The position numbers and the translations under genes were made by a program. Below are positions 26,377 through 49,707 of a DNA stretch of 64,000 nt, one piece after another. The notes beneath the pieces were generated by a model, which ran no database searches, was not told the DNA's origin, and saw only the letters and a list, made by a program, of their open reading frames with translations. The stretch lies in contig NZ_RQYN01000002.1 of NCBI RefSeq assembly GCF_003860135.1, forward strand, positions 62,001 to 126,000, written 5' to 3'. The stretch's first letter is position 1. Every line of letters starts with the position of its first letter. The stretch comes from Tannerella forsythia. Its GTDB lineage: Bacteria; Bacteroidota; Bacteroidia; Bacteroidales; Tannerellaceae.

Positions 26377-26410
26377 TTTGCGTGTAATTAATTTTCTTTC
26401 GTTATCTTTG
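26377..26410 (+). promoter_or_regulatory. Promoter upstream of the 83-bp repeat array
   Basis: TTTG at 26377-26380, then 22 bases, then TATCTTTG at 26403-26410. Both boxes match the Bacteroidota sigma consensus (TTTG and TAnnTTTG); the spacer is one base longer than the usual 19-21. Transcription from here would begin about 26417 and read through the whole repeat array toward the gene at 27158. No terminator is seen in between. Confidence 0.6.
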
Positions 26411-26517
26411 TAAACAAATTATCCGAAGCATATTTTGAATGTGGCAAGCGAGCCGCGATAAAGAGACCAAGGGACTACTCTCGATATGTATGCGTCGATA
26501 AAACGCAGCGGGGAATA

Positions 26518-26932
26518 AGCCGGCACGTAAAGAAAGCTCGTAAAATCAGACACGGAAGGAGCTTTCTTGAAAAAAAGTCGGCAAAATGTCGGACGGAATG
26601 AGCCGGTACGTAAAGAATGCCCGTAAAATGAGACACGGAGGGGACTTTTTTGAAAAAAGGTCGGCAAAATGTCGAACGAAATGGGCTAACACATGAAGAA
26701 AGCTCGAAAAATGAGACACGGAGAGAGCTTTCTTGAAAAAAGGTTGGTAAAATGTCGGACGGAATGAACCGGCACGTGAAGAAAGCCCGAAAAATGAGAC
26801 ACGGAGAGAGCTTTCTTGAAGAAAGGCCGGCAAAATGCCGGACGGAATAGGTTGACATGTGAAGAAAGCCCGAAAAATGAGACACGGAGAGAGCTTTCTT
26901 AAAGAGAACCCGACAAAATGTCGGACGGAATG
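26518..26932 (+). repeat. Five tandem 83-bp repeats, each with two hairpins
   Basis: Units start at 26518, 26601, 26684, 26767 and 26850, with an exact 83-base period and no length change between copies; a decayed sixth begins at 26933. Each unit has a first inverted repeat (AAGAAAGCTC at 26530-26539 with GAGCTTTCTT at 26559-26568 in unit 1) and a second, smaller one about 60 bases into the unit. The second stem changes in a paired way: CCGGCA/TGCCGG in unit 4 (26827-26841) and CCGACA/TGTCGG in unit 5 (26910-26924). The period is not a multiple of three, so long minus-strand frames across the array are not evidence of a gene. Confidence 0.92.
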
Positions 26933-27157
26933 AGCCTACATGCGAAGAGAGCAGATAAAACAGGCCGTTTTATGCATCGCGTATTTTATACGGCTCGGAA
27001 GGAGAGGCACAGATGGTGCCAAAAGGATCTATCGGCTGATACAATGCTGAAAAACAGGCTGCCCGCCGTCGAGCGGGCGGAGACAAAGAAGAAATGAAAC
27101 AAACCGATTCACCCGGAGCTTAGTTGAAAAACGAACTCCCTTAAACTCAAAAACAAA
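26933..27157 (+). other. Leader between the repeat array and the DUF6261-like gene
   Basis: About 225 bases without a gene. It contains the decayed sixth repeat (to about 26950) and a GC-rich hairpin at 27061-27078 (GCCCGC, loop CGTCGA, GCGGGC) with no U tract after it. No TAnnTTTG promoter was seen here, so the gene at 27158 probably depends on the promoter before the array. Confidence 0.5.
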
Positions 27158-27904
27158 ATGAAAAACAGAAGAATCAAAAAAAGTTCAAGCAGTCAGTTTA
27201 CCAGCGCGAGACATGCTCATTTTCACACTCAGGTATATGGTATGATCGCAGAGTATGGATTTGACAAAGTGCATGTTCCGATCGAGCTATCGATCGAATG
27301 GAAGCGTAACATCGACATCGAAGCGGACCTCAACAATCAGTCGTTCGCTCATACCGAGACATCGCAGTTGAACGAGTACGATCACAAGCGAGACGAGTTG
27401 CTCTACTTCTTCTTCGGTACCATTCGTAACGGATTGCGTTCGCCCGAAGCGAAATTCAAGTCGGCATCGGAGGCATTGACAAGCCTTCTTTATCCGTATA
27501 AAGACTTGCAAGGGCAAGCGCGCGACCGGAAGACGGCGCAAATCGAAGGATTGATTATCGACATGCGCAAAGACGAAAACAGTGCACACATGGATACGCT
27601 GGCGCTACGATCGACGGTCGACATGCTGGAAGGGGTCAACAAAGCGTATCAGGAACTGAAAAACAGCCTCACCCGAAAAAAAGCTGCGAAGCCGGAAGAG
27701 TCGCCGGACGATGTACGCCGGCGTACAAACACCTGCTACGAGCAAGTAACGGATCTGATTTATGCTTCTTACCTGCTTGAAACCGATATTACTCGCAAAG
27801 AAGAAATCGGCCGGCTGATAGACGCGCTTAATCAGTTCATCGAAGAGCAAAAAATAGCCTATAAACAAAGTCAGGCTCAGAAAACAAGGGAAAAGAAGAA
27901 TTAA
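27158..27904 (+). CDS. DUF6261-like helical protein of unknown function
   Basis: Predicted cytoplasmic protein (248 aa) with no signal peptide or membrane segment. It is rich in Lys, Glu, Asp and Gln and looks almost wholly alpha-helical. The order of features (an early ARHAHFHTQVYGMI segment, a central SAHMDTLALRSTVDMLEGVNKAYQEL helix, and a C-terminal YEQVTDLIYASYLL region) resembles the DUF6261 family of Bacteroidota as I recall it; a profile search would settle this. Function is unknown. It lies behind a leader of about 740 bases that contains the 83-bp hairpin array. Confidence 0.65.
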   Translation: MKNRRIKKSSSSQFTSARHAHFHTQVYGMIAEYGFDKVHVPIELSIEWKRNIDIEADLNNQSFAHTETSQLNEYDHKRDELLYFFFGTIRNGLRSPEAKFKSASEALTSLLYPYKDLQGQARDRKTAQIEGLIIDMRKDENSAHMDTLALRSTVDMLEGVNKAYQELKNSLTRKKAAKPEESPDDVRRRTNTCYEQVTDLIYASYLLETDITRKEEIGRLIDALNQFIEEQKIAYKQSQAQKTREKKN

Positions 27905-28675: not shown

Positions 28676-28771
28676 AGTTTTCTAATCAAAAAATCCCCTA
28701 CTCTTTCTAGGATTTTCGGGAAACTCCTCTCTTTTCTCAAGCACGAAAGCTAACCCGTTGCTTCAAGGCAT

Positions 28772-48545: not shown

Positions 48546-48917
48546 AACAAAATCACAACAGGTTAATCGGCCGGATACTCCAAGCAACAAATACTGTCGC
48601 CCCGTTTTGGCAATCCTAAAAGCCTGTGAGTCGCTCTATCCGCACGCATACACCAATCCATACTTGCCGCTGCGTGCAGATGGTTTATATCTGTAGAATG
48701 GTAAATAATCATGTTACTGTTGACCATACTATTTTTTCATTTCTGTTTTATTTTAACTGGATACCAAAATTACATCTTTTATTGATTCAAGAAAAGATAC
48801 TGGCACAAGAATCATTTCATGATCAGGTAAAGCACTCAATCGAAGCAGGATGATCAATGATTGAAAAACTTTTATCGCACTACAATAAAATAAAAACATT
48901 CTTTCTCCCTCTATCAT
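48546..48917. other. Intergenic region before the 21-bp repeat array
   Basis: About 370 bases of AT-rich sequence without a recognisable gene. A minus-strand TAATTTTG (48773-48766) fits the -7 consensus and might serve the epimerase gene, but no -33 box is at the right distance. I see no promoter pointing into the array. Confidence 0.35.
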
Positions 48918-49247
48918 AAGGAAACATTCCTTCACCTTAAGGAAGCATTCCTTCATCTTAAGGAAACAATCCTTCACCTTAAGGAAATGCTCCTTCATCT
49001 TAAGGAAACATTCCTTCACCTTAAGGAAGCATTCCTTCATCTTAAGGAAACATTCCTTCACCTTAAGGAAGCATCCTTCATCTTAAGGAAACGTTCCTTC
49101 ACCTTAAGGAAACGTTCCTTCACCTTAAGGAAACGTTCCTTCACCTTAAGGAAACATTCCTTCATCTTAAGGAAACATTCCTTCATCTTAAGGAAGCATC
49201 CTTCATCTTAAGGAAACGTTCCTTCATCTTAAGGAAGCATCCTTCAA
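48918..49247. repeat. Sixteen tandem 20/21-bp palindromic repeats
   Basis: Units of 21 bases with consensus AAGGAAACATTCCTTCACCTT start at 48918 and repeat to about 49247. Within each, AAGGAA pairs with TTCCTT across a three-base loop (ACA, GCA or ACG), and unit borders form CCTTAAGG or TCTTAAGG, so the array is dyad-symmetric on two registers. Most units are 21 bases; units at 49065, 49190 and 49231 are 20 bases, having lost one base at the loop while AAGGA/TCCTT stays paired. The last copy decays at 49247. There are no spacers, so it is not a CRISPR. Confidence 0.93.
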
Positions 49248-49383
49248 GTAAAAAAAAACGGATTTTCGGACAACAAAACAAACGGTTCGCATGTTATTAT
49301 TATAGCGGTGAGACAAACAGGGATGGCATCGTGCCGCTACTTCCGATATCATCCCACAGTATTAACAAAAAAAGCAAATGGAT

Positions 49384-49707
49384 ATGGCAACAAAATCGAC
49401 CAAATCGTATGCCGAACAGTTGAATCGGACGAAGGTGATGCTGGATGGATTGCGTGCCAATGCCGCCACGATTCAGAAGCGAGGGCTTGACGATGTTTTT
49501 TTCGACCGGTTGCAGAAAGGGCTTGAACGTTCCGTTGCCCTGAACACCGAACAGGAGAAATTAAAAGCCGATCTGAAAATCAAGACCGATGAACTGACGA
49601 ACGAAATGGATGTGCTGGCTAAATTGTATGCCGAGGCAAAAAAGTTAGTCAAGATTGAGTTTCCGCAAGAGCAATGGGTTGAGTTCGGCCTGGCTGACAA
49701 GCGGTAA
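49384..49707 (+). CDS. Small helical coiled-coil protein, unknown function
   Basis: Cytoplasmic protein (107 aa) with no signal peptide. Residues about 45-90 (LERSVALNTEQEKLKADLKIKTDELTNEMDVLAKLYAEAKKLVK, given here only to show heptad-like Leu/Val spacing, in short pieces: LERSVALNTEQEKL, TDELTNEMDVLAKLY) suggest a coiled coil. The C-terminus FPQEQWVEFGLADKR looks like a conserved tail. Phasin-like or nucleoid-type roles can be imagined but nothing proves them. ATG 49378, two codons earlier, is also possible. It lies about 135 bases after the 21-bp array. Confidence 0.65.
   Translation: MATKSTKSYAEQLNRTKVMLDGLRANAATIQKRGLDDVFFDRLQKGLERSVALNTEQEKLKADLKIKTDELTNEMDVLAKLYAEAKKLVKIEFPQEQWVEFGLADKR

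Follow-up and report, generated by a model that had tools for sequence, protein, structure and literature searches.

Tandem arrays of 41/42-bp dyad-symmetric units lie upstream of DUF6261 genes across the Bacteroidales and may be DNA sites for the adjacent protein

Genes of the DUF6261 family in the Bacteroidales are nearly always preceded by tandem arrays with a period of 41 or 42 bp, or a multiple, whose sequence differs between paralogues while the period stays constant. This linkage is very secure. The array class is large and apparently not previously described: a literature search returned a single paper naming DUF6261, a Streptococcus oralis study in which the term occurs once, and no paper tying the family to repeats. 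The arrays are most likely helically phased DNA sites for a dimeric protein, and that protein is probably the product of the adjacent DUF6261 gene.

The window, the whole 64,000-nucleotide stretch of Tannerella forsythia DNA that was analyzed, contains one such array. The original prediction had described it as five copies of an 83-bp unit, and TRF returned the same structure, with period 83, 82% matches, no indels and a score of 549 (Table 1). The five units align at 90% mean column identity, and the genome holds no sibling array. As predicted, units 1 and 3 hold a fully paired 10-bp stem, AAGAAAGCTC/GAGCTTTCTT; in units 2, 4 and 5 this stem carries one or two non-pairs. The small stem also reads as reported, with CCGGCA/TGCCGG in unit 4, CCGACA/TGTCGG in unit 5 and a wobble in unit 1, wobbles being present in units 2 and 3 as well. 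Two features had been missed, the composite nature of the unit and the tie of the array to the downstream gene. Because most of the 15 DUF6261 genes of this genome are preceded by an array of period 41, 42 or a multiple, all of different sequence, the 83-bp unit is a 41+42 dimer. The window DUF6261 gene starts 222 bp downstream of the array on the same strand, and a catalase gene is the upstream neighbor of the array.

Table 1. Features of the window, and arrays and related features at other loci (L numbers).
Feature	Position	Strand	Basis
Tandem array, 5.1 copies of an 83-bp unit (41+42 dimer)	26512..26936	+	TRF; gapless five-unit alignment; sole copy in genome
Dyad 1 of unit 1, AAGAAAGCTC (26530-26539) / GAGCTTTCTT (26559-26568), 19-base center, recurring every 83 bp	26530..26568	+	Sequence; 92% of cells pair, five units
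Dyad 2 of unit 4, CCGGCA (26827-26832) / TGCCGG (26836-26841), 3-base center	26827..26841	+	Sequence; 30/30 cells pair, five units
Candidate promoter -7 element TATCTTTG, ~100 bp before array	26403..26410	+	Read from sequence
DUF6261 gene, 248 aa, predicted helical bundle	27158..27904	+	Pfam PF19775, E 2.3e-32; AlphaFold2 mean pLDDT 94.5
DUF805b RNA (RF02914), ~800 bp past DUF6261 gene	28695..28729	-	Rfam match, 37.1 bits (cut-off 35.6)
Second array, 16 copies of 21 bp, palindromic units	48913..49246		
Small ORF, ~108 aa, likely helical	49381..49707		
Arrays before nqrA and before YitT-like gene	L184:19676-19932, L214:6897-7262; L175:13439-13646, L204:15146-15442		G000 and G376
42-bp array (G000 C2)	L176:13035-13139		
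Protein of unknown family, 167 aa, after that array	L176:13372-13872		
Elements with ends ACGTGAGTTCG...CGAACTCACGT that carry arrays	L197:14989-15589, L221:5107-5532		
DUF6261 with C-terminal beta domain (example)	L133:4001-4990		

Several familiar classes were rejected for the window array. A coding repeat does not fit, 83 not being a multiple of three and the scanned open frame across the array having no family match. The entire 83-bp unit repeats, as opposed to repeats with unrelated spacers, which rules out a CRISPR array; an Rfam search over the array returned no match, ruling out a known RNA family. Elsewhere in the window, a second array has a unit half of 42 bp in length, and the small ORF that begins 141 bp after it has protein relatives in 6 of the 40 other genomes searched.

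DUF6261 is patchily distributed within the order, being present in 45 of 392 genomes and 29 of 204 genera. Among 147 distinct DUF6261 genes, the upstream region was 41/42-bp periodic in 129 (118 by TRF and 11 more by autocorrelation), and about 12% had no detectable array. The linked arrays have a median of 4.8 units, and the median gap between array end and start codon is 81 bp. A peak at lag 41 or 42 was present in 74 of the 88 upstream regions taken from the window's genus and one order relative, and peaks of mean upstream self-identity were confined to lags 41, 42 and their multiples. Most DUF6261 loci from other genera and named MAGs also have the array, and the link holds order-wide. Arrays of 41/42 bp or a multiple numbered 133 in ~108 kb upstream of DUF6261, compared with 8 in the remaining ~582 kb of these loci; arrays of other periods showed no such enrichment (3 upstream, 42 elsewhere). 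The density excess was 61, 75 and 188 times in three sets of loci. Homologous arrays in relatives, on whose presence the original prediction had been staked in advance, were thereby found. The shared period of 41-42 bases corresponds to about four turns of the double helix.

The consensus units are palindromic beyond chance, with a mean best stem of 6.46 compared with 4.41 in shuffles. Across 57 arrays, the within-array substitution rate was 0.14 at the dyad center, 0.016-0.024 at 3-7 bp from it and 0.11-0.14 at 9-13 bp, a profile in which picking long-stem arrays may introduce bias, while complementarity of the consensus by itself needs no low variation; randomly shifted centers gave a flat profile. 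Judged from these substitution patterns, the low-change zones at 3-7 bp have the shape of two half-sites.

Orthologous arrays have swapped their dyad sequence while keeping it self-complementary. In one DUF6261 subfamily the frame of the unit (GTCGCAATCC...) is retained while the dyad differs, allowing 19 frame-anchored orthologous units to be compared. The dyad lies at one fixed position, where 79 of 114 cells are Watson-Crick, the center having been set after an offset scan (every other offset gave 19-36) and the loci being related, so that cells are not independent events. Shuffling arms among loci gave 38.7±5.9 Watson-Crick cells, with a maximum of 61 in 10,000. Single dyad pairs take up to four Watson-Crick types, and subfamilies c1-c3 look similar by eye. 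The paired changes that the original prediction had read from the window's five units are therefore borne out between orthologous arrays and not within the window, where covariation did not exceed shuffling (148 of 500 shuffles reached the observed value) and the window alone is thus no proof of paired change. Its proposal that a symmetric element, as opposed to a protein, is under selection is supported.

The symmetric element could in principle act as RNA or as DNA. Selection on RNA tolerates G·T and does not tolerate A·C. Broken pairs within arrays comprised 99 G·T and 84 A·C, with a neutral expectation of 1.12:1 (P 0.77), and those between the 19 orthologous arrays comprised 8 of each. Many dyads are centered on 0-2 nt and are therefore too tight to fold. 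The Bacteroidales promoter -7 consensus is TAnnTTTG, and upstream of arrays this motif occurs at 1.81 per kb on the gene strand, compared with 0.85 on the other strand. In 30 genes it was found solely upstream of the array, and in 13 solely between array and gene; the array is therefore not always within the transcript. At one locus, L005, the likely promoter sits between array and gene. Action of the array class at the RNA level, as far as such sequence comparisons can tell, is not supported.

We therefore consider it very unlikely that the array works like the repeats of type III toxin-antitoxin systems, as an RNA leader whose successive hairpins are bound by the DUF6261 protein. The layout of repeats followed by a gene is shared, and in the window and at several other loci a likely promoter lies ahead of the array. 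The window array, taken as RNA, folds better than dinucleotide shuffles (z -4.4), and its small stem is RNA-like, with seven wobbles and no A·C, yet it is one array among many. The lack of G·T excess, the tight centers and the promoter position at L005 all weigh against a leader, as does the absence of any toxin or defense family match to DUF6261 in the searches made (Pfam, PADLOC). RNA structure, which the original prediction had offered as the target of selection, is thus not borne out; of its alternative, structure in DNA, the DNA element is favored, with a symmetric protein site preferred over an extruded cruciform.

We propose that each array lines up dyad-symmetric DNA sites, with one or two in every 41-42 bp, and that the four-turn spacing would place successive sites on one face of the helix. 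A DUF6261 dimer would bind cooperatively to the sites in its own array and thereby control its own expression. Each paralogue would recognize its own dyad sequence; under such recognition dyad and protein would change together, with no cross-talk between paralogues. Taken whole, this account of cooperative, autoregulatory and paralogue-specific binding is tentative, its chance of being right in every step falling a little short of even; it is the best of the explanations considered.

The window protein scored 112.5 bits against the Pfam family (cut-off 27), and DUF6261 was the sole family matched at E up to 0.01. Its AlphaFold2 model is a confident all-helical bundle. Many relatives, including many DUF6261 proteins of the window's own genus, have a C-terminal beta domain after the helical bundle, with the motif YTGKPVxxIPxV...FTVxYKNNxxPGTATLxIxGxGxYxG...TFNI. 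DUF6261 was unmatched in NCBIfam and PHROGs. A known defense system was rejected on the lack of a PADLOC match, and a phage origin on the lack of a DNA match in phage records, of a PHROGs match, and of relatives of two DUF6261 subfamilies in viral contigs. A fold search with two DUF6261 models returned helical bundles only, at Z below 10 and within the chance range for such folds, with no convincing match, and no DNA-binding motif was recognized. The average DUF6261 protein is acidic, the median net charge being -5 and the charge of the window protein +2. This acidity and the absent fold match are what chiefly weakens the case for DUF6261 as the binder.

The same two properties favor a different binder, such as a nucleoid or partition-like factor, with DUF6261 a mere frequent carrier of the sites or a partner of the binder, and so do similar arrays at other genes, which are many in one genome of the genus (G376) and few in the window genome (for example before nqrA and a YitT-like gene). 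We nonetheless regard a different binder as unlikely. Each DUF6261 paralogue has array sequences of its own, which diverge along with the protein, and their turnover is fast, 2% of pairs still BLAST-matching at 50-60% protein identity, whereas a single common binder would keep arrays alike. Outside G376, moreover, arrays away from DUF6261 are rare. The arrays before nqrA and the YitT-like gene keep their position in both genomes with different sequence. Another 42-bp array precedes a 167-aa protein whose relatives, in seven genomes searched, occurred in all five with DUF6261 and in neither of the two without (Table 1).

G376, a complete 3.0-Mb genome of the window's genus with 55 DUF6261 matches, carries, per Mb, ~140 arrays with units of 41/42 bp or a multiple. 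Most are not adjacent to DUF6261, and they were grouped into sequence families. In 1.2 Mb sampled, 28 dispersed arrays lay between convergent, 63 between tandem and 17 between divergent genes (background 34, 122 and 27), showing no promoter bias, and arrays upstream of DUF6261 never lay between convergent genes. A promoter regulon acting through dispersed arrays was therefore rejected; a simple regulon is unlikely because arrays without DUF6261 are common in G376 and not promoter-biased. Families with exactly one DUF6261 locus showed a weak excess, 16 compared with 10.6 expected (P 0.03; 0.06 at another threshold). Array density was 142, 40, 24 and 20 per Mb in genomes with 55, 38, 15 and 5 DUF6261 copies and near 0 in genomes with none. 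This is suggestive of density tracking copy number, but one genome with 11 copies gave 0 and the samples are mostly of 50-100 kb. Palindromic repeats that flank the gene and are also dispersed were seen for several G376 DUF6261 genes and, in part, for the L001 locus of the window genome. A further dispersed palindromic repeat, GTAGGGGCGTATTGCATACGCCCC, adjoins many G376 arrays and is seemingly a separate MITE-like repeat.

One class of G376 arrays lies, in both orientations, inside elements with terminal inverted repeats ACGTGAGTTCG...CGAACTCACGT; further elements sharing these ends have other arrays or lack one. Array and gene have also been copied together to new sites, with three 1.43-kb copies that are 95-97% identical, end near the array start and the stop codon, and show no inverted repeats. 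Together with the lack of promoter bias among dispersed arrays, these observations favor a selfish repeat system (compare REPIN-RAYT and BrickBuilt) in which the array is a mobile or slippage-made minisatellite and DUF6261 its passenger or spread factor. We doubt this explanation: no terminal inverted repeats were seen in the examined flanks of the DUF6261-linked member of that G376 family, the searches detected no transposase-like domain, and slippage does not account for one period across unrelated sequences, dyad symmetry and symmetry-keeping swaps.

If DUF6261 is indeed the binder, the pairs might constitute an undescribed chromosomal system of the Bacteroidales, in which the many DUF6261 proteins bind DNA with array specificity and coevolve with their sites, each having a helically phased dyad array of its own; dyad sequences would have been swapped repeatedly with symmetry and four-turn spacing kept, and dozens of pairs plus dispersed arrays would mark some chromosomes. 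This broader reading is possible, and we would sooner bet against it than for it. On this reading the pairs would perhaps organize the chromosome, or reflect intragenomic conflict that forces changes of specificity. The arrays give DUF6261, a family of unknown function that reaches 55 copies in a 3-Mb genome, a concrete candidate DNA partner that can be tested. Were binding confirmed, the swapped dyads of the 19 orthologous arrays would offer a natural experiment on the coevolution of a symmetric DNA-recognition code with its protein, spacing being fixed and sequence free.

Among known systems, the iteron or operator arrays of plasmid replication and partition are tandem, helically phased protein sites beside the gene of their binder, which is often autoregulated. 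The arrays described here likewise comprise tandem, helically phased repeats next to the gene of a putative binder. They differ in being chromosomal, with up to 55 DUF6261 genes per genome and a dyad that differs per paralogue, and DUF6261 lacks any domain of replication or partition proteins.

ToxIN and other type III toxin-antitoxin systems have tandem repeats directly upstream of a single protein gene, as here, but those repeats function as RNA, and the gene encodes an endoribonuclease toxin (PMC8860590). The broken-pair counts reported above, by contrast, give our arrays no apparent RNA-wobble signal, and DUF6261, predicted to be all-helical and without a convincing fold match, matches no ToxN-like endoribonuclease family in Pfam or PADLOC.

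The BrickBuilt minisatellite MITEs of Porphyromonas gingivalis consist of 23-nt repeats with a leader, a tail and inverted repeats such as GAGACCTTTGCA (PMC4596501). They too are intergenic tandem minisatellites of a related Bacteroidales genus, and some G376 arrays likewise lie between terminal inverted repeats. The DUF6261-linked G376 array examined had no terminal inverted repeats around it, however, and the arrays here are linked to one gene family; the difference in unit (83 bp, or 41+42, in the window and 41/42 bp in the other arrays, versus 23 nt) rules out BrickBuilt membership.

REPIN-RAYT systems pair palindromic extragenic repeats with a tyrosine transposase, each RAYT being distinctive and flanked by its own repeats (PMC3116915). 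The likeness lies in palindromic extragenic repeats with a linked gene and in the dispersal of similar repeats. DUF6261, in contrast, is a helical bundle without a tyrosine transposase domain (HUH, Y1), and its repeat units stand in long tandem arrays with a fixed helical period.
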